Shown here piece by piece: positions 2,479 through 21,165 of a DNA stretch of 21,165 nucleotides. The first letter of the stretch is position 1. Each line of letters begins with the position of its first letter. The translations under genes and the position numbers were made by a program. Source of the DNA: a virus; IMG/VR virus record IMGVR_UViG_3300025890_000191, positions 1 through 21,165 of that record, one strand, 5' to 3'. The notes under the pieces were generated by a model that made no database searches, had not been told where the DNA came from, and saw only the letters and a list, made by a program, of their open reading frames with translations.

Positions 2479-2756
2479 TAGAAACCATCATCATTAGCAT
2501 ATTAGGAGTAGGAGTTGTGACCTTAGGATTCACAACTTTTAATCTCCTACGTAAAAATGAAAAACAAGAAGATATACTTACAGGGTATATCACGTATTTG
2601 GATCAATTAAGTCGAATTATAGAAATCTCTGATGAAAAGCTCAAGAAAATTGATGAGCGGGAAATATTTAAAAGTGATGATGAAATTGGTTTTATGTACC
2701 AACAAATAAAAGACCTCCAGAGAATTCTATCTCAATTTAGGATAGATAAATTATGA
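2475..2756 (+). CDS. Membrane-anchored coiled-coil protein (93 aa)
   Basis: Residues 1-25 (METIIISILGVGVVTLGF-like composition, starting MIETIIISILGVG) form one hydrophobic helix followed by RKNEK, consistent with a single-pass N-terminal anchor with the C-terminus in the cytoplasm. The rest is charged helix (LSRIIEISDEKLKKIDE and MYQQIKDLQRILSQF) likely to form a coiled coil. It overlaps both neighbours by ATGA, so it is made together with the HD phosphohydrolase and the sigma factor. The function is unknown. Alternatives such as a holin or spanin are possible, but no lysis gene is seen nearby, so I do not assign that. Confidence 0.65.
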   Translation: MIETIIISILGVGVVTLGFTTFNLLRKNEKQEDILTGYITYLDQLSRIIEISDEKLKKIDEREIFKSDDEIGFMYQQIKDLQRILSQFRIDKL

Positions 2757-3475
2757 GCACATTACCCCCTAAAAAAAGGAAAAAGAAAACAAAAAACCAA
2801 TATTTTACACAAGCAACCGAAGATGCGATAGTAAGATATAATAATTGTAGTGATTTTGAAGAGCGTAGTGAGATCTATCGTAAAGATATTCACTATGCTT
2901 TTTTTAAACTTACCGAAAATATAATTCATACCTTTAAATTTTACTATACAGAAGTAGATGAAATTGAACATCTTCAACATGAAGTAATTACATTTTTGTT
3001 AAGTAAAATACATTTATTTGATCCTACACGGGGGGCTAAAGCATTTTCATATTTTGGGACAATTGTTAAAAGGTATTTAATTATAGAAAATACTAAAAAT
3101 TATAAAAAAAGGGTAGACAAAGCCCCTCTTGAAGAATTACACCATGACCTAAGACATTCTTATGACATGGACTATAACCCCACAGAAAAGGATGATCTAT
3201 CAGATTTCCTAGATGAATACCTAAAATATTGTACCGATAATATTTACATTTTATTCCCTAAAGAAAAAGATGCTAAAGTAGCTGATGCTATACTAGAAGT
3301 ATTTAGAAAAAGAGAAAGTATAGATATCTTTAATAAAAAGGCTATTTATCTTTATATTAGAGAAATGGTAGATGTAAAAACCCCTCATATTACCCGAGTT
3401 GCAGATCAATTGGGTGATATTTTTAAAAAAAGTTTTATTTTTTACAAAGAATATGGGTATGTAGATTTTGAATAA
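2753..3475 (+). CDS. gp55: Late-transcription sigma factor (T4 gp55-like)
   Basis: This 240-aa protein has a Lys-rich N-terminus (PPKKRKKKTK) and a sigma region 2-like core. The segment DEIEHLQHEVITFLL followed by FDPTRGAKAFSYFGTIVKRYLI (start about residue 89) matches the T4 gp55 pattern, where the FDP...AF.YF block lies in the helix that binds core RNA polymerase and the -10 region. T4 gp55 is about 185 aa, so this version is longer, mainly after residue 115. The C-terminus ends in acidic-hydrophobic residues (GYVDFE), which could be a sliding-clamp contact like that of T4 gp55; this is inference. It lies immediately upstream of the virion genes it would be expected to switch on, and overlaps the upstream gene by ATGA. 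Confidence 0.82.
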   Translation: MSTLPPKKRKKKTKNQYFTQATEDAIVRYNNCSDFEERSEIYRKDIHYAFFKLTENIIHTFKFYYTEVDEIEHLQHEVITFLLSKIHLFDPTRGAKAFSYFGTIVKRYLIIENTKNYKKRVDKAPLEELHHDLRHSYDMDYNPTEKDDLSDFLDEYLKYCTDNIYILFPKEKDAKVADAILEVFRKRESIDIFNKKAIYLYIREMVDVKTPHITRVADQLGDIFKKSFIFYKEYGYVDFE

Positions 3476-3479
3476 TATT

Positions 3480-3487
3480 TATATTTA
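3480..3487 (+). promoter_or_regulatory. TATATTTA motif five bases before a start codon
   Basis: TATATTTA lies in the 17-base gap after the sigma-factor gene, with five bases (TTATC) before the ATG at 3493. It could mark the start of the structural transcript. The same motif and spacing occur before the genes at 845 and 20463, with one-base variants before 6001 and 16109. Confidence 0.5.
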
Positions 3488-3492
3488 TTATC

Positions 3493-3840
3493 ATGGGACA
3501 GTTAGATAAAAATATATTTGGTAATAAAAAATTTTCTGATATATTAGAAGAAATTTACAATAACCAAAAGAAAAAAGAAGAGCAAATCTCTACTCTCATT
3601 TCAGAATTAAAACCCCTTATTCAAGATATTGGGGATGCTACTCTTGTTGTTCCTCTCCTTAAAGAATATTTGGAAATATCTGTTAAAAACGATGAGCAGC
3701 TTATTAAAATGTCAACTATTATCCAACGTGCTGTACAAAGTGAGGTAGATGATGATGGTAGTTTTGGCATGACAGAAAAAGAAAAACAACAGTTATTAGA
3801 TGAGGTAAAAAAATTTGGAGAAGGTAAAAATAAGAAGTAA
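3493..3840 (+). CDS. Coiled-coil hypothetical protein (115 aa)
   Basis: The protein begins MGQLDKNIFGNKKFSDILEE and is helical throughout, with a likely coiled coil at NQKKKEEQISTLISELKPLI. Next comes a hydrophobic helix (DATLVVPLLKEYLEISV) and a lysine-rich tail (KKFGEGKNKK). It follows the gp55-like gene, where T4-type genomes may carry a second late regulator (gp33, 112 aa), but I see no sequence resemblance to T4 gp33. It is linked to the spike gene by a TAATG overlap, which favours a role in tail or baseplate assembly, for example as a chaperone. The function is unknown. Confidence 0.65.
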   Translation: MGQLDKNIFGNKKFSDILEEIYNNQKKKEEQISTLISELKPLIQDIGDATLVVPLLKEYLEISVKNDEQLIKMSTIIQRAVQSEVDDDGSFGMTEKEKQQLLDEVKKFGEGKNKK

Positions 3841-5045
3841 TGCCCCAACAATTTTATGGTGTTTCCGCTCTTACAAGAACCAATGAATCTACTTCTAACT
3901 TACAAGGAGAAGAGGGGAAAGATATAACCTCAGTTAGAGTTAAAGATATTATATTAGATGATACTCATCCCGAATTTAAAAATTATGGAGGATGGAATGG
4001 TATAGGAACAATATTTTTTGATTCTGTGAATTTCCCCTTTGGAGAAGAGGTAGCTAATATAGCACGACCCTTATATTCAAATAATAAATTTTATCCTTTA
4101 ATAAACGAGTTAGTAGCCCTAGTATTTTTAGCTTCTACAGAAACTCAAACTAACACTAATATTACAGAGGCTTATTATCTTCCCCCAATTAACTTGTGGA
4201 ATAGCCAACATCACAATGCCCTCCCAGACCCCACACTAGAACTTTCAGAAAATACTAAGCAAGATTATCAAAATGCTGAAGGGGGTTCCTCTCAGGAAGT
4301 AAGAAGAGTATATGATGATTCAACTGATATTAATTTAGGGGAGGGTTTCAATGAGCAAATTAATACTCATCCCTTATTATTTTTTGCAGGGGATAGTTTA
4401 ATTGAAGGTAGATGGGGGAATTCAATTAGATTAGGTAGTGTAATAGAAAATAATATAAATTATCCTATTACTATTATAAGAAATGGTCAACCTGTAGATA
4501 CAAGTAATGAAGGATGGGTACCCATTAAAGAAAATATAAATAAAGATATTTCTTCTATATATTTAACTGATACTCAATCTTTAGATCTAAATGTAGCTAG
4601 TACTTCTTATGAGAGTTATAATTCTGCTCCTGAAGGGGTAACAGAATACACAAACAGTCAAATTGTCTTAAATTCTGGGAGATTGATACTTAATGCTAAA
4701 TCTAGTGATATTTTATTAACTTCAAATAAAAGTATTAATTTAAATACTCCTACAACAATCAATATTGATTCAAAAGAAACATACATTGCTTCTAAAAAAA
4801 TATACTTAGGGGATAAACAAGCTACTGAACCTCTTTTAAAAGGGGATATAACTATAACTCAACTTAATTCAATTATTGATAGTTTAGTTCAATTTTTTAC
4901 AATATATGGGAAAGAACCTTCCCCATACAAACCAGGTTCAACTCCTTTATCTAATAGTATAATAGGTACTTTAAATTCTGCTAAAGCTACCTTAAATAGA
5001 GCAGGGCAAGGAGGTGCTAAATCAAATCAAAACTTTACCAAATAA
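3840..5045 (+). CDS. gp5: Baseplate central spike protein (T4 gp5-like, no lysozyme domain)
   Basis: This 401-aa protein has an N-terminal OB-fold-like segment (about 30-105: TSVRVKDIILDD through FYPLINELVALVFLAS). A conserved block DSLIEGRWGNSIRLGS (185-200) follows, which I know from gp5/spike proteins of cyanophage-type T4 relatives. Then comes a run of short alternating strands (about 272-335: QIVLNSGRLILNAK, DILLTSNKSINLN, TTINID, KIYLGDK) typical of the C-terminal triple-stranded beta-helix of gp5 and VgrG. The tail after 335 is helical then Gly/Ala-rich. There is no recognisable lysozyme domain between OB fold and helix, unlike T4 gp5. The protein would form the trimeric membrane-puncturing spike at the centre of the baseplate. 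It overlaps both neighbours by TAATG. Confidence 0.82.
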   Translation: MPQQFYGVSALTRTNESTSNLQGEEGKDITSVRVKDIILDDTHPEFKNYGGWNGIGTIFFDSVNFPFGEEVANIARPLYSNNKFYPLINELVALVFLASTETQTNTNITEAYYLPPINLWNSQHHNALPDPTLELSENTKQDYQNAEGGSSQEVRRVYDDSTDINLGEGFNEQINTHPLLFFAGDSLIEGRWGNSIRLGSVIENNINYPITIIRNGQPVDTSNEGWVPIKENINKDISSIYLTDTQSLDLNVASTSYESYNSAPEGVTEYTNSQIVLNSGRLILNAKSSDILLTSNKSINLNTPTTINIDSKETYIASKKIYLGDKQATEPLLKGDITITQLNSIIDSLVQFFTIYGKEPSPYKPGSTPLSNSIIGTLNSAKATLNRAGQGGAKSNQNFTK

Positions 5046-5983
5046 TGGCTAGTGAATTTTGCAAAATAGCACCTGCAGATGATACTAAAAGTATTTTATC
5101 TCAACTCCCCGCCTTACCAGGAATAAATCAAATTGTTGACTTAATTAATAAAGAAGTTAATAGTTTAAAAATTAAATATATAGGCAAGATAAAAGAAATC
5201 TTATTAAGTTTTGCAGAAGGGGTATGTCCTACACAACAACAAATCGATAAATTTGTTAATATTAGGAATAATATTGTAGAACAATTGACTAAAGTGTATG
5301 AAAAGGTAGATAGATTATCTAGCAATATCTCTGGTGTTACTAATTTTTTAACTCTTATATTAACAGGTATAAAAGTAGCTTCATCAGTAGCTAGAAGTTT
5401 GGCCTTAGGAACAATATTTTCCCCTTTCCCTATACCAGGAGCGGTATCCTCAGGAATTTCAGCAGCTCAAGGAGAAATAGAAAAATTTAAATTTAAAGCT
5501 GATGGTGCACAAAAATTAGTTCCTATAACAGGAGGACTTATATCAGCCAATATAGCTATTAAATTATTTGCAAATGCTTTAAGAGATTTAATTTGTACTA
5601 TAGAAGCTTTGGATGTTAGTATGGTAGAATGCTCTTCTCAACCCCCTTTAGATACTCCTCCTGAACAAGTCCAAGCAGTAAAATTACAATTAGCTAAAGA
5701 ATTTCAAGCAAAGTTAATTCCTATATCTGCTGATGTGATTTCTTTTGTAGAACAAGATGTAGAAGAAACTGAAAGTAGTTTATTAGATACTACTTATAAA
5801 GGATTTAATTTTGAAATTGAAGAAATCCCATTTTCTCCTACAGTAAATAGAAAGAGAGCCCTTGCTAAAAACTCAGACAATATTACTTTATTACAAAGTG
5901 AATTATCTTTTACTTCTACTCCTAATATTTTAATAGAAGAATTAAAATTTGTAATAGATAGAGATAATTTAAGAGCACAATAA
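5045..5983 (+). CDS. Virion-associated protein with long hydrophobic stretch (unknown)
   Basis: This 312-aa protein has an N-terminal helical region with two cysteines (C6, C61), a coiled-coil-like segment (FVNIRNNIVEQLTKVYEKVD, about 70-89) and a hydrophobic, Gly/Ala/Pro-rich stretch (about 95-142: NFLTLILTGIKVASSVARSL then GTIFSPFPIPGAVSSGISAA). A second weaker hydrophobic stretch lies at 158-180. The C-terminus is polar and ends in ILIEELKFVIDRDNLRAQ. Its place between the spike and gp25 genes, with TAATG coupling to the spike, suggests a baseplate or tail-tip protein. The hydrophobic part could insert in the host membrane during DNA entry. No named family is recognised. Confidence 0.65.
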   Translation: MASEFCKIAPADDTKSILSQLPALPGINQIVDLINKEVNSLKIKYIGKIKEILLSFAEGVCPTQQQIDKFVNIRNNIVEQLTKVYEKVDRLSSNISGVTNFLTLILTGIKVASSVARSLALGTIFSPFPIPGAVSSGISAAQGEIEKFKFKADGAQKLVPITGGLISANIAIKLFANALRDLICTIEALDVSMVECSSQPPLDTPPEQVQAVKLQLAKEFQAKLIPISADVISFVEQDVEETESSLLDTTYKGFNFEIEEIPFSPTVNRKRALAKNSDNITLLQSELSFTSTPNILIEELKFVIDRDNLRAQ

Positions 5984-6330: not shown

Positions 6331-6752
6331 TGGCTATTAAACAAACCAATATATTTCCTATTGATCAAGAACCAAGAAATGCTGTTGGTTTGGCATACCC
6401 TTTTTCGGCATTTGCTACTACAGGTTCTGTTCCTTTTAAATTAAATTATACTACAAGAGAACAAATTAATTCAAATTTAATAATATGGTTTACAACATCC
6501 CAAGGGGAAAGGCCATTAAATCCTAATTATGGAGGAGGTTTAAAAGATATTTTATTTGATAATTTAACTACTCAAACATATGATTTAGTAGAAAAAAGAA
6601 TTAAAGATGATTTAGCTAATTATTTTCCTGAGGTTGTTTTAGTAGATTTAGAAGTATTAGAAAATATAGATAATAATACTTTAAAAGTAATTATGTCTTA
6701 TACTGTGTTTAATAATAGTAAAGATACCTTAGAATTAAATTTTAATTTATAA
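6330..6752 (+). CDS. gp25: Baseplate wedge protein (T4 gp25 / P2 gpW family)
   Basis: The protein is 140 aa; T4 gp25 is 132. It has the family core NSNLIIWFTTSQGERPLNPN followed by YGGGLKDILFDNLT (about 47-80): a helix, then the conserved G-E-R-x-x-x-P-x-[YF]-G turn, then a [LI]-F helix. gp25 sits at the inner end of each baseplate wedge and contacts the central hub and first sheath ring; homologues occur in all contractile injection systems. It is followed directly by a gp6-type gene (TAATG overlap), the order found in T4-like and P2-like phages, which supports the call strongly. Confidence 0.92.
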   Translation: MAIKQTNIFPIDQEPRNAVGLAYPFSAFATTGSVPFKLNYTTREQINSNLIIWFTTSQGERPLNPNYGGGLKDILFDNLTTQTYDLVEKRIKDDLANYFPEVVLVDLEVLENIDNNTLKVIMSYTVFNNSKDTLELNFNL

Positions 6753-8614
6753 TGACTCCCAATAGTAAAGATATAAAATATATAAATAGAGATTTTGATA
6801 GTATTAGAAATAATCTTTTAGAATTTTCAAAAACCTATTTTCCAACTACTTATAATGACTTTAGTCCCAATTCTCCTGGGTCTTTATTTATAGAAATGTC
6901 TTCATATGTAGGGGATGTTTTATCTTTTTATTTAGATAACCAAGTACAGGAAACGTTTTTACAATATGCACGACAAGAACCTAATTTATATGAGTTAGCT
7001 TATATGATGGGATATAAACCTAAAGTAACAGGTACTTCTTTAACTGATATTGATTTTTATCAAACTGTTCCTGCTAAAACGGAAGGAGGAATCCAAATCC
7101 CTGATTTTGATTATGCTCTTCTTATTAGTGAAAATTCAACAATTTCTTCTACTTTAGGTTCCACTATTAATTTTTTAGTAGAGGATTCTATAGACTTTTC
7201 AGTTTCTTCCTCTTTAGATCCTACTGAGATTAGTGTATATTCTACTACCAATGGAGGAGCAGATGTTGATACTTTTCTCCTTAAAAAAACTAAAAAAGCT
7301 AAATCAGCCACTATTACTACTATTACTCAAACTTTTACTGAGGTAGAGCGTTATCCTACCATTACTATAAATGATTCTAATATTATAGGTATCTTAGATG
7401 TAACGGATAGTGATGGTAATATATGGACTGAAGTTGATTATTTAGCTCAAGAAACAATATTTAATCCCATTAAAAATAAAAGTACATATGGGAGTGATCC
7501 CAATACTGAAAATGATGCAGGTGAAGTACCTTATATACTTAACTTAAAAAAAGTTCCTAGAAGATTTGTAAGTAGATTTAAATCAAAAACTCAATTAGAA
7601 ATTCAATTTGGGGCAGGAACTAATCAATATAATATTAATGAAGTTATAACTCCTAACCCCACCAATGTAGGCATTGGGTTACCTTACACAAATAATAAAA
7701 TAAAAACAGCATTTGATCCCCAAAACTTTTTATTTACAAATACTTATGGAATTGCTCCTTCAAATACTACTTTAACTATTAGATATTTAACAGGTGGTGG
7801 TGTTACTTCTAATGTAGAAGCTAATATTTTAAATACTTTAACGGGAACTGTTAAATTTCAAAACGACACTTTAATAAATAATACAGCTCAAGATACTTTT
7901 GATTCTTTAATAGCAACTAATCCTCAAGCAGCTAGTGGAGGGAGTGATGGAGATTCAATTCAAGAAATTAGAAATAATTCATTAGGAAATTTTGGGGCTC
8001 AATTAAGGACAGTAACACCCCAAGATTATCTTACTAGAGCTTTAAGTTTACCCTCTCAATATGGTGCATTAGCTAAAGCTTATATTGAAAAAACAAAAGC
8101 AAGTAGTAAAAGTGGACCTATATCATCATTAGACTTATATGTGTTAGGGTATAACAGCCAAAAGCAATTAACTATTACCCCTTCTTCATTAAAAAAGAAT
8201 TTAAGTACTTATTTATCTCAATATAGAAGTGCTAATGATTCTGTTAATATTAAGAATGCCTTTATTATTAATATAACCATAGATTTTAGTTTAATTATAT
8301 TACCTAATTATAATAGCAATGAAGTTATATCTAGATGTATAACAGCCCTACAAGATTTTTTCAACATAGACAACCAGCAAATTAATCAACCTATTTTATT
8401 AAGGGAAATTTATATTATTTTAGATAAAATCGATGGGGTTCAAACTGTAGATGATATTAAAATTTCTAATAAAAATGGAGGGAATTATTCTGAGTATGGT
8501 TATGATATAGAAGGAGCAACACAAAGTAATATTATTTATCCCTCTTTAGACCCATCAATATTTGAAGTTAAATTTCCAGATGTAGATATTAGGGGTAGAG
8601 CTAGAACATTTTAA
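6752..8614 (+). CDS. gp6: Baseplate wedge protein (T4 gp6 / P2 gpJ family)
   Basis: This 620-aa protein is close to T4 gp6 (660 aa). The N-terminus KDIKYINRDFDSIRNNLLEF, then a block reading SPNSPGSLFIEMSSYVGDVL and SFYLDNQVQETFL (about 36-70), is the conserved gp6/gpJ signature. The C-terminal half holds the family core RTVTPQDYLTRAL with PSQYGALAKAYIEK (about 420-450), then a mixed alpha/beta region including YKF-like strands. gp6 dimers form the inner ring of the baseplate, linking neighbouring wedges and contacting gp25 and gp7. The adjacent gp25 gene confirms the assignment. The start follows a TAATG overlap; the next gene begins two bases after the stop. Confidence 0.9.
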   Translation: MTPNSKDIKYINRDFDSIRNNLLEFSKTYFPTTYNDFSPNSPGSLFIEMSSYVGDVLSFYLDNQVQETFLQYARQEPNLYELAYMMGYKPKVTGTSLTDIDFYQTVPAKTEGGIQIPDFDYALLISENSTISSTLGSTINFLVEDSIDFSVSSSLDPTEISVYSTTNGGADVDTFLLKKTKKAKSATITTITQTFTEVERYPTITINDSNIIGILDVTDSDGNIWTEVDYLAQETIFNPIKNKSTYGSDPNTENDAGEVPYILNLKKVPRRFVSRFKSKTQLEIQFGAGTNQYNINEVITPNPTNVGIGLPYTNNKIKTAFDPQNFLFTNTYGIAPSNTTLTIRYLTGGGVTSNVEANILNTLTGTVKFQNDTLINNTAQDTFDSLIATNPQAASGGSDGDSIQEIRNNSLGNFGAQLRTVTPQDYLTRALSLPSQYGALAKAYIEKTKASSKSGPISSLDLYVLGYNSQKQLTITPSSLKKNLSTYLSQYRSANDSVNIKNAFIINITIDFSLIILPNYNSNEVISRCITALQDFFNIDNQQINQPILLREIYIILDKIDGVQTVDDIKISNKNGGNYSEYGYDIEGATQSNIIYPSLDPSIFEVKFPDVDIRGRARTF

Positions 8615-9741: not shown

Positions 9742-10106
9742 ACCAAAGAATAAATTTAAATAGAAAAGTTTATAATAAAAGTGATTATTTAAAAACAATA
9801 GACACTTCCTTTAATGAACTTCTTCCTCCTACTCCTATAGTAGAAGAAGATTCAATTACAGTAGAACAATTTTTTGATTATTATGATCAATTATTTTTTG
9901 ATATTCCTAAAACAGGAATAAATTCCCACAATACCCTTATACAGCAAAGTTCAGAATATGTAGGTGATGAACAAACCAATGAAGAAATAGAAGCTTTAGT
10001 TCAAGAAATTAATTCTTTAAGAGATCAACTTCTCCAAAATCAAACAGATTTAACAGAACTTCAACAAGCCAATGCTGAATTGGCACAAAATACATTAAAT
10101 GGCTGA
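9738..10106 (+). CDS. Small baseplate-associated coiled-coil protein (122 aa)
   Basis: The N-terminal half is polar with an aromatic-acidic segment (EQFFDYYDQLFFDIPKTG, about 44-61). The C-terminal half is a Gln/Leu/Glu-rich coiled coil (EEIEALVQEINSLRDQLLQN and LTELQQANAELAQN, about 82-118). The protein probably trimerises or binds helices of a larger baseplate protein. It overlaps the DNRLRE-like gene by ATGA and the 1460-aa gene by 8 bases, so all three are likely to be translated together and to act in one assembly. No family name can be given. Confidence 0.65.
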   Translation: MNQRINLNRKVYNKSDYLKTIDTSFNELLPPTPIVEEDSITVEQFFDYYDQLFFDIPKTGINSHNTLIQQSSEYVGDEQTNEEIEALVQEINSLRDQLLQNQTDLTELQQANAELAQNTLNG

Positions 10107-13100
10107 AGTTATAGTAAATAAGATATCAACTGATATAGTAGAAAACTATTCAAAAGAAGATTTAAATCTAATCCCATCTTTTGATGTGATCTCCCAGTTT
10201 AACCCTGAAACTGATGTAGTTGAATTTTCAATATACAATGAACAAAATTTACTTCAATATATAAATTATAATTATACTAATTATACAGTAACTTTAGATT
10301 ATAATACTAAAAAAAATGCTATATCTTCAGTCAATGTAAATCCTGAAGAAGATTTAGTTAGAGAAGGATATGATCAAGGAAATTATACTGTAATATATAA
10401 TTTTTTAAGAAACCAGATTTCTTCTTCCCAATCTTCCCCATATTACATAAAAGAAATCAGCTCAGATAGAACTGAGATTAGGGTAGCTAATAATAATATT
10501 TCTAATGAAGATTTAAAAGAATTAATAAATAATTTTAAATTAGAACTAACAGAATCTCCTTATTTTGAAGATTTTGAAATTAATTTTGGTAATAATAATA
10601 TATTTTTAGCTAATAATATTTTAATTGATACTACTACAGAACAATACACAGTTTTAATTAAACTATATGAGTCTTTAGAAACATCATTTAATGTAAAAGA
10701 TACATTAACAGTTGTATTACAAACTGCGGAAGAAGTTTCTTACAATGTTAATTTTCCTAGTATTACAATTGCTCCTCCTTTACCTTTGGAATTAAAGGGA
10801 CCTAATTTTAATTTATCTTTAAATGATAAAATTAATAATTCAACTACTTTTACTTCTAAAAAAGATTTATTTGATATAACACCTGAAAATGCTTGGACTG
10901 GTTCTTTAGGGGAATTGCAAAATATATTAAAAGACAAAGGAATTACCCCTAATGTAGACTATTCAGACTTTAACAATTTTATATATTTTTCTTCAGCGGA
11001 ACAAAGAGTTAGAAATTTTTATTATAAAGTAGGATTAATACAAGATTATAGTGCTTCTATTGCTGATTTGGGAGATATTTCTAGTGGGGATACTTCAGGT
11101 AGTATAGCAGAATATCAAACTTTAATAAATAATGTTTTAATAAATTTGGATGAGTATGAAAAGTATCAATATTATTCATCGGGATCTTTAGATATATATC
11201 CTAAAACTAATGATACTCCTCCTTATAATTTAGCTTTAACAAGTAGTGTATTAGCAACAGATTGGTTAACAGACCAAGCCATAAATTCTGGATCAGAATA
11301 TGATTTAGAAAATAGTGATAGTTTAAATAATTCTTTGCCTTCATATACTAGAGATGACTTAAGAAACATTCAGTTTTTTAGGTTTTTAGATATGGTAGGT
11401 CAAAGTTTTGATAATATATGGGTTTATACTAAGGATTTATCTAACAGGTTTGATGCAGATAATAGATTAGCTTATGGTATATCTAAGGACATTGTAGCGG
11501 ATGCTATTAGATCTATGGGAGTTAATTTATATCAAAATAATTTTGATTCATCTAATCTTTTATCATCTCTTACAGGTATTAATCCTGGTGGTGGTATCCT
11601 CCCCCCTACAGGCTCAGAAGTAATTGAGACTTACATAAGTGCCTCAGATGATCTTACTATAATAGATGATGTAAATAAAGAATTTTATAAAAGAATATTT
11701 CACAATTTACCTTTGTTACTTAAACAAAAAGGTAGTATAGCAGGATTAAGAAATTTAATTAATACCTTTGGAATTCCTGATACTGTTTTAAGAATATCTG
11801 AGTTTGGGGGGAAGGATAAAGATAATTCAAACGATTGGGATTATTTTCAAAACGAATTTAATTATGCTTGGGATGTTAGTGGTAGTTTAGATGCTCAAGC
11901 TGATGGAATGGGAGGAGAATTTCCATTTAGTTTAAATAGTGAATGGGAATCAACTGATGATGTTCCTGAGTCAGTTGCCTTTAGGTTTAAATTAAACCCT
12001 TCTGGGGGGCTGCCCAGTGAAGATACTTTTGTAGCTCTTGCAGATTTTAATACAGGAGGAACTAATGGAGTATTAGCACTTGAATATACAGGATCAGGTT
12101 ATTTAAGCTCTTCTTACTCGGGTTCAATTCCATCTTCATCAAACGAATATGCTACTTTAGCTTATTATAATGGTAGTACTAAAGTAGTATCTGTAGATGC
12201 TCCTTTTTATAACAACGATTGGTGGACTTTATATATAAATAAAAATTCAACAACATATACTTTAAAAGTAGGTAATCAAATTTATAATGGGGGTGATGGT
12301 TTTAAAGTAGGATTCACGGCTTCTAACTCAGCAACAGATGCTGGAGGGGCATGGGCCTCTACTACTGATTTAGAAATACCTGGTGCTGATGTTACTATAG
12401 GGAGTAATAATTATATAGGATTTACGGGTTCTATTCAAGAAATTAGATATTATAATTGTGCATTAAGTGATGATACTTTTTATGATTTTGTAATGAATTC
12501 TGATTCAATTGAAGGATCTTCCCCATCATCATCTGCAGATAATTTATGTTTTAGAGCTCGTTTAAAATCTATTGAAGGATCAGCAACCTTAAAATCTAGT
12601 CATCCTAAAATATCAGGATCTGTTTCTTATATAACTCAATCCTTTTCTTCTGATTCAGATTTTAGATTATGGAATTATAGACCCCAATATTGGTCTCCAC
12701 ATACTTATTTTGTATATCAAGATCAACCTGCAGCAGGTATAAAAAATAGAATTACTGAAAAAATTAGAACTGAAAATTTATCTCTCCCTTCTGGTGATAC
12801 CTTATCTCCTATTAGAAGTGTTCAACAAAATTATTTAACTAAAGAGAGTGGGAGCTACACTAAAGATATAAGTCTACTAGAGATAGCATTTTCCCCACAA
12901 AATGAGATTAATGATGATATTAATTCATCCATGGGATACTTTAATATAGGGGAGTATATAGGAGACCCACGTCAAATATATGACTCCGTTACTTCATATC
13001 CTGACTTGGATTATCTACAAAATACTTATTTTCAAAAATATTATAAAAATTATGATTTAAATGATTATATAAGATTAATTAAATTTTTTGATAATTCTTT

Positions 13101-14481
13101 GTTTAAGATGATTAAAGATTTTACCCCAACTAAATCAAGTTTAGCCACAGGGGTAGTTATAAAACAACATATTTTAGAAAGAAATAAACAAAAACCCCCT
13201 TCTACAGAATCCTCTCAATCTTATTATACGTCTTCTGTAAACTCAGGATTTATTGAAGGAGGTACTGGGGGGAGTTTTATAGGAACTAATAATTCTACAA
13301 TTTCTACAGGATCTCTTGATATACAAATTAACAGAAGTACTACTTTGGATCAAATTGGGGAATGGGTTAATGCCTTAAACCAAACCCCTTCAGTTAATGA
13401 TGGAGAATTATTTACTTTTAATACTAGTGATGATAGTATTACATATACCAACCCCGATGGGAGACCCAATAAAATATTATATATAGTATCAGGTTCAAGT
13501 AATATAGCAACTCCTTCTTCAAGAGATGTAAATTTACAAATATTTTCCTTAGATAGAAATATATCTTTAGGGCAGATAAATAATATAAATCCTGGAGGGG
13601 ATAATGTTGTATATTCTACTAGTTTTGTTATTCTACCTAATGAAGAAATTGAAATAAGAGTTCAACCCTTAAGTTCTACAACTAATAATGCTTATACTCA
13701 CCAATTTATATCTACTACTGAGTTTGTAGCTAATTCATTTGTAATTCCTACTAAAAGTGGCTCACTTAATTATATTAGAACCACTCAGGATGAATTTTAT
13801 AATGGTGAGTTAAGTGGTAGCATTATCTTAGCCAGTGATGGGGAATTAATTCCTAAATCCCTTAATCTTACTGGAAGTTTTGTATCAAACTATGATTCAG
13901 TTGTTAAAGACCCCCAAGCGGGTGCCGGTTCAGATGGGGCTTTATATTATCGTTCTACTAGCACTGGAAATGGGCCGTTAGTAGCAATTTCTAGATTAGA
14001 TTTTAATGAGAATGATGCTGATAGTAATGATAGAAGAAGTTATTTTGAAAATTTAAACCCTGGGGATATTTTATCTTTAGATTATATTAATGGAGAGGGT
14101 ACTACTTTTAGATTAAATTTAACAATTTCTTCTATTATTGAAGGATTAGTAGGTGATTTTAAGGTATCAGTAGTTCCATTTAAAAACACTGATTGGGTAA
14201 ATGGTAATATTTCAGAAGTAAATATTTATTATGACCCTAATATTATATCTAATAATGTTATAGAAAATAATGTAGAAGATAGTAGGCTTTCTACTATATA
14301 CCAAGATATAGATTATAGCTCAAATATGGTTACTCCTGTTAATTTAAATTTACTAAGTACAAATGAAGCTAATAGAGCTCCTATTCAAGATTCAAATTAT
14401 GGCAAAAAAGCATGGAGAAATAGTAGGTATGATGGAACACGTGTATCTTCTATAGATTTTAACATTCCTATAAGTAAATAA
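10099..14481 (+). CDS. Large baseplate wedge-like protein (gp7/gpI position) with LamG-like domain
   Basis: This is the largest gene here, 1460 aa. The N-terminal 400 residues are beta-rich. Around 425-445 comes FRFLDMVGQSFDNIWVYTKD, then at about 535-561 FHNLPLLLKQKGSIAGLRNL followed by INTFGIPDT. This last resembles the LP...KGT..aL...l..G core of P2 gpI-type tail proteins, the counterpart of T4 gp7. Residues about 615-800 form a LamG/concanavalin-like domain (SVAFRFKLNPSGG, WWTLYINKNSTTYTLKVGN, YIGFTGSIQEIRYYNCALSD). The rest is beta-rich and ends NSRYDGTRVSSIDFNIPISK. T4 gp7 is 1032 aa, so this protein is longer. It probably forms the outer wedge arm and displays a glycan-binding module. 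It overlaps the upstream gene by 8 bases. Confidence 0.68.
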   Translation: MAEVIVNKISTDIVENYSKEDLNLIPSFDVISQFNPETDVVEFSIYNEQNLLQYINYNYTNYTVTLDYNTKKNAISSVNVNPEEDLVREGYDQGNYTVIYNFLRNQISSSQSSPYYIKEISSDRTEIRVANNNISNEDLKELINNFKLELTESPYFEDFEINFGNNNIFLANNILIDTTTEQYTVLIKLYESLETSFNVKDTLTVVLQTAEEVSYNVNFPSITIAPPLPLELKGPNFNLSLNDKINNSTTFTSKKDLFDITPENAWTGSLGELQNILKDKGITPNVDYSDFNNFIYFSSAEQRVRNFYYKVGLIQDYSASIADLGDISSGDTSGSIAEYQTLINNVLINLDEYEKYQYYSSGSLDIYPKTNDTPPYNLALTSSVLATDWLTDQAINSGSEYDLENSDSLNNSLPSYTRDDLRNIQFFRFLDMVGQSFDNIWVYTKDLSNRFDADNRLAYGISKDIVADAIRSMGVNLYQNNFDSSNLLSSLTGINPGGGILPPTGSEVIETYISASDDLTIIDDVNKEFYKRIFHNLPLLLKQKGSIAGLRNLINTFGIPDTVLRISEFGGKDKDNSNDWDYFQNEFNYAWDVSGSLDAQADGMGGEFPFSLNSEWESTDDVPESVAFRFKLNPSGGLPSEDTFVALADFNTGGTNGVLALEYTGSGYLSSSYSGSIPSSSNEYATLAYYNGSTKVVSVDAPFYNNDWWTLYINKNSTTYTLKVGNQIYNGGDGFKVGFTASNSATDAGGAWASTTDLEIPGADVTIGSNNYIGFTGSIQEIRYYNCALSDDTFYDFVMNSDSIEGSSPSSSADNLCFRARLKSIEGSATLKSSHPKISGSVSYITQSFSSDSDFRLWNYRPQYWSPHTYFVYQDQPAAGIKNRITEKIRTENLSLPSGDTLSPIRSVQQNYLTKESGSYTKDISLLEIAFSPQNEINDDINSSMGYFNIGEYIGDPRQIYDSVTSYPDLDYLQNTYFQKYYKNYDLNDYIRLIKFFDNSLFKMIKDFTPTKSSLATGVVIKQHILERNKQKPPSTESSQSYYTSSVNSGFIEGGTGGSFIGTNNSTISTGSLDIQINRSTTLDQIGEWVNALNQTPSVNDGELFTFNTSDDSITYTNPDGRPNKILYIVSGSSNIATPSSRDVNLQIFSLDRNISLGQINNINPGGDNVVYSTSFVILPNEEIEIRVQPLSSTTNNAYTHQFISTTEFVANSFVIPTKSGSLNYIRTTQDEFYNGELSGSIILASDGELIPKSLNLTGSFVSNYDSVVKDPQAGAGSDGALYYRSTSTGNGPLVAISRLDFNENDADSNDRRSYFENLNPGDILSLDYINGEGTTFRLNLTISSIIEGLVGDFKVSVVPFKNTDWVNGNISEVNIYYDPNIISNNVIENNVEDSRLSTIYQDIDYSSNMVTPVNLNLLSTNEANRAPIQDSNYGKKAWRNSRYDGTRVSSIDFNIPISK

Positions 14482-18788: not shown

Positions 18789-19958
18789 ATGGCAGAACAA
18801 CTTAAAACCAACTTTGGAGGAGATGATCAAATAGCAGATGGTAAAACCCTTCAACCTCACCACGTATCTCAATCAGTTGATGCGTTTACAGGAAATGTTG
18901 CTTATGATATTACTATAAGTGGAAGCCTTACAGTCAGTGAAGGTGATATTACTTTAGGGGATGTTGATACAGATGGAAGTGCTACTAATTTTTTAGTACT
19001 AGATGGAAGTAATGTAATAAAAAAACAAACATCAGGAGCAAACGGAACCTCAGGTTCATCAGGTACTTCAGGCTCTAGTGGTTCTTCAGGTACAAGTGGA
19101 TCATCAGGTAGCTCAGGTACTTCAGGTTCTTCAGGTACAAGTGGTTCTTCAGGTACAAGTGGATCATCAGGTACCTCAGGTTCATCAGGATCATCGGGTA
19201 TTGCAACTCTTACGGGTGCTACTGATGATGGTGTCCTTACTTTAAATGGTTCTTCCCCTAATGTTGCTGTAGAAGCAAATATTAGAATTACAGATGCAAA
19301 TTCCGATAGATACTTAGCCCTATCAGAAGGTATAGCTCCAAATGATTTTACACCTGTAGAAATTGTCCATATCTCAGGAAGTGGTGATCCCCACATATTA
19401 GTTCAAAGTGGAGTTGATAATTTTATTAAAATGGGTTGTGATACATCTGCTCACCCTCAAATATTGTTTGGTGATCAAGGCACAATAGATGGTAATGAAC
19501 TTAAAATAGGATACGCTACATCACCAGATGATACTGTACCTAATGTAGTAATGGCCATTAGTGCAAGTGGTAAAGTATCTATAGGTTCTACAACCCCCGA
19601 AGATGAATTTTTCTCAGTAGTAGGAGACGAAAGTGGGGAAGAAATAGCTAGATTCCAAAACAATAATAGTTCTAAACCTCAAGGTATTATAAATAGATTA
19701 AATATTTCTACCCCTGAATATGATAGTACTGCTGGGACTGATGCTCAAAATTTCGTATCTGTAGATACTACTCAATATATGATATTCCAAAGGGCAAGTG
19801 GTAATACAATGGGTGGTATTAGAGGGGATGATAGCCAAGCTTTTGGAAGTTTAGTATTTGAAGGAAAATCTACAGGTGTTATTTTAACATCACCAGATGG
19901 TACAAAATATGCAATAACTGTAGCCAATGATGGAACACTAGGAACATCAGCAGTATAA
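18789..19958 (+). CDS. Collagen-like tail fibre protein
   Basis: This 389-aa protein has a short N-terminal domain (1-82, MAEQLKTNFGGDDQIADGKT onward, with beta segments such as YDITISGSLTVSEGDITLG). A collagen-like run of Gly-X-Y triplets follows (83-139), almost all GTS or GSS. The C-terminal domain (140-389) contains VAMISASGKVSIGSTTPED-like strands (actual text VVMAISASGKVSIGSTTPED) and ends SPDGTKYAITVANDGTLGTS, a pattern seen in phage fibre tips. The triplet run would make a trimeric rod spacing the binding tip from the baseplate. There is no proline, so rigidity would differ from animal collagen. It is the last structural gene before DNA-metabolism genes. A role in host adsorption is inferred from architecture and position. 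Confidence 0.78.
   Translation: MAEQLKTNFGGDDQIADGKTLQPHHVSQSVDAFTGNVAYDITISGSLTVSEGDITLGDVDTDGSATNFLVLDGSNVIKKQTSGANGTSGSSGTSGSSGSSGTSGSSGSSGTSGSSGTSGSSGTSGSSGTSGSSGSSGIATLTGATDDGVLTLNGSSPNVAVEANIRITDANSDRYLALSEGIAPNDFTPVEIVHISGSGDPHILVQSGVDNFIKMGCDTSAHPQILFGDQGTIDGNELKIGYATSPDDTVPNVVMAISASGKVSIGSTTPEDEFFSVVGDESGEEIARFQNNNSSKPQGIINRLNISTPEYDSTAGTDAQNFVSVDTTQYMIFQRASGNTMGGIRGDDSQAFGSLVFEGKSTGVILTSPDGTKYAITVANDGTLGTSAV
19035..19199 (+). repeat. Collagen-like 9/18-base triplet repeat
   Basis: In-frame tandem GGN-encoded triplets run from residue 83 to about 137 of the fibre gene; the seventeen from 19044 to 19196 are all GTS or GSS. At DNA level, near-identical units recur (for example GGTTCTTCAGGTACAAGTGG at several places), while other units use synonymous codons. 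This indicates expansion by slippage or recombination on an older diverged array. Confidence 0.9.
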
Positions 19959-20449: not shown

Positions 20450-20470
20450 TATATTTACCCTAATGGTAAA
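20450..20470 (+). promoter_or_regulatory. TATATTTA motif and start-codon hairpin before primase
   Basis: TATATTTA (20450-20457) lies five bases before the ATG at 20463, matching the arrangement at 832 and 3480. It overlaps an inverted repeat, TTTACC (20454-20459) and GGTAAA (20465-20470), whose five-base centre CTAAT holds the first two bases of the start codon. If the RNA includes the left arm, the hairpin would enclose the start codon and could limit translation. Confidence 0.45.
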
Positions 20471-21165
20471 TCAATTACTAGTATCTTTAATGGACTCCGT
20501 CCTAGGTAAAGGTAAACAAACATCCAGAGGTAACCATGCTTACCACTGCCCCTTTTGTAAACATCACAAACCTAAAATGGAGGTGAATTTTACAGAAAAT
20601 AAAAAGGGTCATAATCCTTGGCATTGTTGGGTATGTAATACTAGAGGTAAAACCATCCCTAATCTTCTTAAAAAGATTGAGGCATATGATAGAATTGAGG
20701 AGGCTAAAAGATTAATTCCTCAAGGATCATTTGTTGAAGAAACAATAATTAAAAACGATCTTCATCTCCCTCAAGAATATACCCCTTTCATAGACAATCC
20801 TACCAGTCTAATGGCTAGACATGCCTTAGCTTATTTAAAGAAAAGAGGGGTTACTATGGAAGATATGATTAAATATCATATGGGATATTGTGAAGAAGGA
20901 GAATATAGAAATATGATTATTATTCCCTCATATGACTATAAAGGTAATCTAAATTACTTTACAGCTCGTAGTTTTGAAAAACAACCCTTCCGTAAATATA
21001 AAAACCCATCAGTATCTCGCGATATTGTGCCATTTGAAATGTTTATAAACTGGAATAGCCCGTTGGTATTGTGTGAAGGACCATTTGATGCCATAGCCAT
21101 CAAAAGAAATGCAATCCCGCTGTTAGGAAAAAATATACAAACTAACTTAATGAAGAAAATTGTTT
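20463..21165 (+). CDS. DNA primase, DnaG/T4 gp61 type (3' end cut by window edge)
   Basis: The frame from ATG 20463 stays open to the window end, giving 234 complete codons. The N-terminus has a zinc-ribbon: CPFC at about 30-33 and CWVC near 54-57 (WHCWVCNTRGK). A primase core follows (RHALAYLKKRGVTMEDMIKY, then YRNMIIIPSYDYKGNLNYFT ARSF). Near the end is LVLCEGPFDAIAIKRN, the Toprim motif with catalytic Glu and the E-G-x-x-D-A pattern. In T4 the primase gp61 makes RNA primers for lagging-strand synthesis with the gp41 helicase; a helicase domain downstream, as in T7 gp4, cannot be excluded because the gene is cut. The next in-frame ATG (20490) is a possible alternative start. Confidence 0.85.
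   Translation, partial: MVNQLLVSLMDSVLGKGKQTSRGNHAYHCPFCKHHKPKMEVNFTENKKGHNPWHCWVCNTRGKTIPNLLKKIEAYDRIEEAKRLIPQGSFVEETIIKNDLHLPQEYTPFIDNPTSLMARHALAYLKKRGVTMEDMIKYHMGYCEEGEYRNMIIIPSYDYKGNLNYFTARSFEKQPFRKYKNPSVSRDIVPFEMFINWNSPLVLCEGPFDAIAIKRNAIPLLGKNIQTNLMKKIV

Follow-up and report, generated by a model that had tools for sequence, protein, structure and literature searches.

A LamG-like domain in one loop of a myophage baseplate protein: predicted fold, occurrence and signs of exchange among relatives

The window analysed here is a stretch of viral DNA of 21,165 nucleotides, positions 1 to 21,165 of the IMG/VR record IMGVR_UViG_3300025890_000191. Our subject is one open reading frame (ORF) within it, which encodes a baseplate protein, and in particular a domain inserted in that protein. 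A first-pass annotation, made from the letters alone, had placed a LamG-like domain of about 185 residues at 11940-12500, within a wedge protein of gp7/gpI type, and had proposed that the domain was modular and exchangeable and gave the baseplate arms direct contact with a glycan or surface. Where relatives have to be told apart we use numbers of the L001 type, each of which stands for a homologue locus. The parts of the protein on which the argument turns are as follows.

10099..14481, + strand: the ORF of the 1460-aa baseplate protein, comprising a conserved core, the LamG insert and a variable C-terminal part.
11545..11664, + strand: loop 'site A' (residues 483-522), which holds inserts in relatives L108/L209 and L130.
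11665..11811, + strand: upstream core block, residues 523-571, which holds the KGS..GLRNLINTFGIP motif.
11728-11778, + strand: the KGS..GLRNLINTFGIP motif itself, residues 544-560, a short gpI-like motif match.
11854..12720, + strand: LamG/concanavalin-like domain, residues 586-874, as predicted with AlphaFold2, Foldseek and VIA-align.
11881..12696, + strand: stretch matching the exchanged tract of relatives, about residues 595-866, placed in the window by alignment; the swap event itself is seen between relatives, not in the window.
12865..13185, + strand: downstream core block, residues 923-1029.

The fold came from structure prediction. AlphaFold2, run on residues 420-1065 with an alignment of 66 relatives, returned a confident β-sandwich at residues 586-874, where the predicted local distance difference test (pLDDT) is mostly 74-94 across blocks of the domain; outside it the model is poor (mean pLDDT 59.5). 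When the domain model was compared with the Protein Data Bank (PDB), Foldseek gave 48 matches at E <= 0.001. These are mainly laminin G (LG) domains of laminin, SHBG, neurexin and agrin, and tailspike 2 of CBA120, together with a few unrelated long chains; the LG domains were matched at E values down to 5e-5. VIA-align placed the domain among LamG, pentraxin and other concanavalin-like domains at Z 11-15 (root-mean-square deviation 2.8-4.7 Å over 154-213 residues), on a scale where models with no clear match typically reach a best Z of 7-8. A two-sheet β-sandwich of LamG/pentraxin type is predicted with good confidence, which confirms the first-pass observation. The first-pass annotation had the fold right, and also its position just past the KGS..GLR motif, about 25 residues downstream of which the domain begins. 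Its extent was too short: 11940-12500 corresponds to residues 614-801, entirely inside the predicted sandwich.

Sequence profiles alone do not name the domain in the window. No Pfam, PHROG or NCBIfam family in the window protein explains it, and PDB sequences likewise gave no LamG assignment. None of the 67 aligned members matched a LamG family profile (such as PF13385) at cut-off; below threshold, PF13385 (Laminin_G_3) appeared in three of the ten distant relatives' inserts tested, with a best E of 7e-4. Pfam also aligned a sub-sequence weakly with Glyco_hydro_28, short of the cut-off at E 0.034, and this match was not adopted.

Column entropy is 1.72 bits in the domain versus 0.59 and 0.88 in the core, and among the window's clade 2210 of 2211 pairs have the domain less conserved than the core. 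The latter count would suit a reading of the domain as a passive decoration that is only weakly constrained, in which the divergence is drift and the sharp edges mark no more than the place where constraint on the sequence ends. The close pairs tell a different story. Both flanks are at least 88% identical in nucleotides in 18 non-identical pairs, and in eight of these, falling into two groups (L005-L009 and L032/L033), the domain is at 69% or below. L007 and L009, for instance, are 95-99% identical beside the domain and 63% within it. In blocks of 25 codons their identity is 89-100% over residues 1-575 (97-100% before 375), 48-77% over 601-875 and 90-100% over 876-1150; codon by codon it stops at about residue 594 and returns at about 867, and blastn breaks at about the same places. 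At third positions of conserved codons the identity is 0.66 in the domain, whereas the flanks reach 0.92 and 0.86 and the N-terminal part 0.98. Because silent positions drop too, the divergence of this pair is not only a matter of selection on the protein, and relaxed constraint fails to explain it. The reverse case is L018 and L016, with a domain 93% identical between flanks at 75%; the ORF that follows is only 54.5% identical at the protein level, and therefore the domain moved without its neighbour. A domain that stays alike while its flanks differ largely contradicts the idea of a passive decoration, which we consider improbable.

Control segments sharpen the point. Among pairs with near-identical flanks, the domain falls below 75% in 8 of 26, and five control segments do so in 0 of 11, 0 of 18, 0 of 9, 0 of 7 and 0 of 8. 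When all 3240 pairs are compared at third positions of conserved codons, the domain lies more than 0.1 below the flanks in 335 and above them in 69. The converse statistic, a segment exceeding its flanks in similarity by 0.10, is met elsewhere too: it picks out four pairs in the domain (L018 with L014-L017), four at residues 20-305 and 19 at 220-505, although segments adjoining the domain are inflated by having it among their flanks. The argument therefore rests on the drop between near-identical flanks, the silent sites and the edges. The nearest neighbour by core differs from that by domain in 41 of 81 cases, a count that includes near-ties and is supportive only.

Every swap case comes from IMG/VR contigs and none from an isolate, which raises the prospect that metagenome assembly produced the recombination signal through chimeric contigs. 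We give this very little credence. The breaks recur at both edges of the fold in separate pairs (L007/L009, L032/L033 and L018/L016) from differently numbered samples, and one variant is common to two contigs, L007 and L008, which are identical in both core and domain. On these alignments it is well supported, and our strongest result, that the insert behaves as a recombining module with edges at the fold boundaries. The proposal of an exchangeable module survives in this form; what is traded here, however, are variants of the same fold and not different folds.

To follow the domain more widely we assembled 299 proteins from six scans, individual records (including immuto, Mel-JY01 and LR756508) and the window, some of them overlapping loci of one contig. 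The loop at the LamG site is 40-99 residues long in 184 of them and at least 280 in the other 115, with nothing intermediate; dereplication leaves 87 compact-loop and 57 filled-loop proteins. All 80 of the best IMG/VR relatives have the domain. Its absence from some homologues, which the first-pass annotation had suggested looking for by alignment, is seen in the compact loops. The protein gp161 of Flavobacterium phage vB_FspM_immuto and its relatives have a homologous core and the same gene order but lack the domain, the core running from ..FGIP....GG through a compact link of about 25 residues to ..KIR. Conversely, WWT39511 of Microcystis phage Mel-JY01 and a protein of the uncultured phage LR756508 (a 484 kb record) are homologous to it in the core and have an insert in the same position, yet are just 26-27% identical to the window protein. 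The domain of the window's clade is homologous to the inserts of the distant Mel-JY01 and L278 groups (hhalign 98.5%, over 270 columns, and 98.3%); the LR756508 insert is only weakly similar to the window group (hhalign 14%). Fitch parsimony on a midpoint-rooted FastTree tree, whose deep nodes are weak (0.37, 0.71), requires two changes in insert presence, be it two losses or a gain and a loss. This is one old domain, absent from at least two lineages, or gained and then lost.

Two candidates fell away in this comparison. An apparent class of 100-175 aa inserts at the LamG site was an artefact, the proteins having the compact link and their extra length further downstream. L108, seemingly a LamG carrier in the first tree, has its insert at another loop. 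That insert, in the upstream loop site A of one LamG-less relative (L108, at 2580-5423, and L209), is a Fib_succ_major domain (E 1.2e-40), which we take to be a C-type-lectin-like fold. L130 (2697-7505) has an insert of about 200 residues at site A with no Pfam match, a third loop holds inserts of 60-77 residues in seven loci (some from one contig), and L128 (3153-7082) has 469 residues inserted in the downstream core block. The scaffold takes inserts at several loops.

What is this scaffold? The clue from gene order begins upstream.

6752..8614, + strand: gp6/gpJ-like baseplate wedge protein (PHROG 219 and 10646; TIGR02243 below cut-off).

Two ORFs separate this gene from the domain-bearing ORF, an arrangement also seen in Flavobacterium phage immuto. 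Apart from the two intervening ORFs, the order fits that of P2, where gene I comes after J. With P2 gpI the similarity lies at its KGT motif, to which hhalign aligned KGS/KGT..GLR at a probability of 4-17% (P 0.0015-0.01) over just 20-28 columns. Neither the window protein nor those of Immuto and Mel-JY01 match PF09684 (Tail_P2_I); the LR756508 homologue scores 12.7 bits against this profile, below the cut-off of 20.6, at the KGT motif. Compared with a single T4 gp7 sequence, hhalign gave a probability of 0.2% (E 0.35). The LamG-less core, modelled separately (mean pLDDT 77, predicted template modelling score 0.49), had no PDB match at E <= 0.001, and the absence of any gp7 or gpI chain from the matches excludes neither. 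Only a small barrel at core residues 113-215 reached Z 6-8 in a second structure comparison. Against BFVD the core model had 17 matches (E <= 0.001), almost all of them to unnamed or uncharacterized proteins. We call the core a baseplate protein in the wedge position, probably gpI-like; the earlier gp7/gpI label is unproven. Of that label, the gpI half gains a little from gene order and the short motif, and the gp7 half gains nothing from the comparison with one gp7 sequence.

Lectin-type domains in loops of conserved baseplate proteins have precedents. The wedge protein Gp119 of Bacillus phage Vp4 (baseplate wedge 3) has carbohydrate-binding modules (CBMs) and was shown to bind cells; these extra sugar-binding-type domains are missing from its homologues Deep-Blue Gp177 and A511 Gp105 (PMC11406892). 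Its folds differ from ours, being of CBM16 and xylanase-CBM type in a gp105-like protein of Herelleviridae, and the accessible text names no LamG fold and describes no domain exchange (PMC11406892). In lactococcal skunaviruses the evolved Dit is similarly a conserved tail-tip protein with a carbohydrate-binding domain inserted in some relatives only, and by experiment that domain affects adsorption, aiding it; the differences are that Dit belongs to a non-contractile tail, that the folds are other ones and that the host effect is experimental (PMC10688798). Absence of the domain from homologues is common to Vp4 Gp119, evolved Dit and the window protein. AlgoCIS, with its Alg11 spike cage and the gp7-like part of Alg12, is a contractile system that has CBM-like domains in a baseplate component, and its gp7-like part was called a hotspot of change. 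It differs in that it serves the marine bacterium Algoriphagus as an extracellular injection system and has CBM27-like domains; swapping between near-identical scaffolds is not described in the part of the account at hand (PMC8894135). Elsewhere, a variant wedge protein of phage K8 is described as binding core oligosaccharide (PMC9887876), and concanavalin A domains have been reported in unidentified structural proteins of Pelagimyophage baseplate regions (PMC7029224).

With these precedents we lean, with modest confidence, towards an old and exchangeable LamG insert that binds a host surface glycan at the baseplate rim. Inserted into a single loop of a baseplate protein that myophages conserve, this LamG-fold domain of about 290 residues would be displayed at the baseplate periphery and may bind a surface glycan of the host during adsorption. 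Homologous recombination within the conserved sequence that flanks it would trade its variants, and the same scaffold could in this way present different binding surfaces. What makes a surface-binding module the best reading is the fold, the fact that it is exchanged whole, and the precedents of Vp4 Gp119 and evolved Dit. The fold is predicted, and the place, occurrence, faster divergence and exchange of the domain are seen in the sequences, whereas its location on the virion, the binding of a ligand and the nature of that ligand as a glycan are inferred. On this reading the choice of host cell surface would be made partly by the baseplate and not by the fibres alone.

Several observations pull the other way. 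No binding-site residue was identified in the domain. Strands are as variable as non-strand positions (1.74 vs 1.70 bits), with no focused hypervariable rim, and the domain loops YTGS..SYSGSI and PF..G.WW are highly conserved, which a structural interface would fit too. Of the 18 pairs whose flanks are both at least 88% identical, 10 have a domain at 76% or more, so most close pairs are without a clear swap, and none is seen in the window or its nearest relatives, L002-L004. There is also at least one candidate for a separate, collagen-like fibre in this phage. The main rival, which we think unlikely, casts the domain as a docking adaptor that holds tail fibres or another baseplate part, with variants that track this partner and not a host glycan. 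Its conserved loops could form the interface, and the gp7-like part of AlgoCIS is described as contacting fibres (PMC8894135); yet L018 and L016 share the domain while their next ORF differs, as given above, though the contig ends before more distant fibre genes.

A lectin-like insert in a wedge is already known in principle; this family and the domain-bounded swapping did not turn up in a literature search judged by titles and the opening lines of abstracts and thin for subscription papers and preprints. We would tentatively, at a little short of even, see the scaffold as a recognition platform with several loop sites, its LamG domain traded by recombination exactly at the fold edges and its diversification receptor-tip-like and independent of the tail fibres. 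This concerns a large, uncultured and unannotated myophage family. Host-range prediction for uncultured phages looks at tail fibres. Should exchangeable modules of lectin fold be a feature of baseplate scaffolds, some of the choice of host would be encoded in genes now called hypothetical. Since the exchange tract is bounded to within a few residues, the module should be expressible alone, and L005-L009, whose naturally swapped variants sit on scaffolds that are nearly identical, lend themselves to comparison.

The remainder of the protein has its own variability.

13240..14253, + strand: residues 1048-1385, which align poorly even where the relatives share 77% identity in the core.
14254..14466, + strand: C-terminal module, residues 1386-1456.

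In many relatives (L005, L008, L012 and L014 among them) this conserved tail of about 70 residues is the end of a separate next ORF, and in Immuto (L082) it is located within the next ORF. The difference in placement between relatives is a matter of gene fission or fusion. Further along the window, 18789-19958 encodes a collagen-repeat protein, a probable tail fibre (Pfam Collagen, E 1.2e-8; PHROG tail fibre matches), and at 20463-21164 lies the start of a gene of DNA primase/helicase type (PHROG 47, E 5.6e-37).
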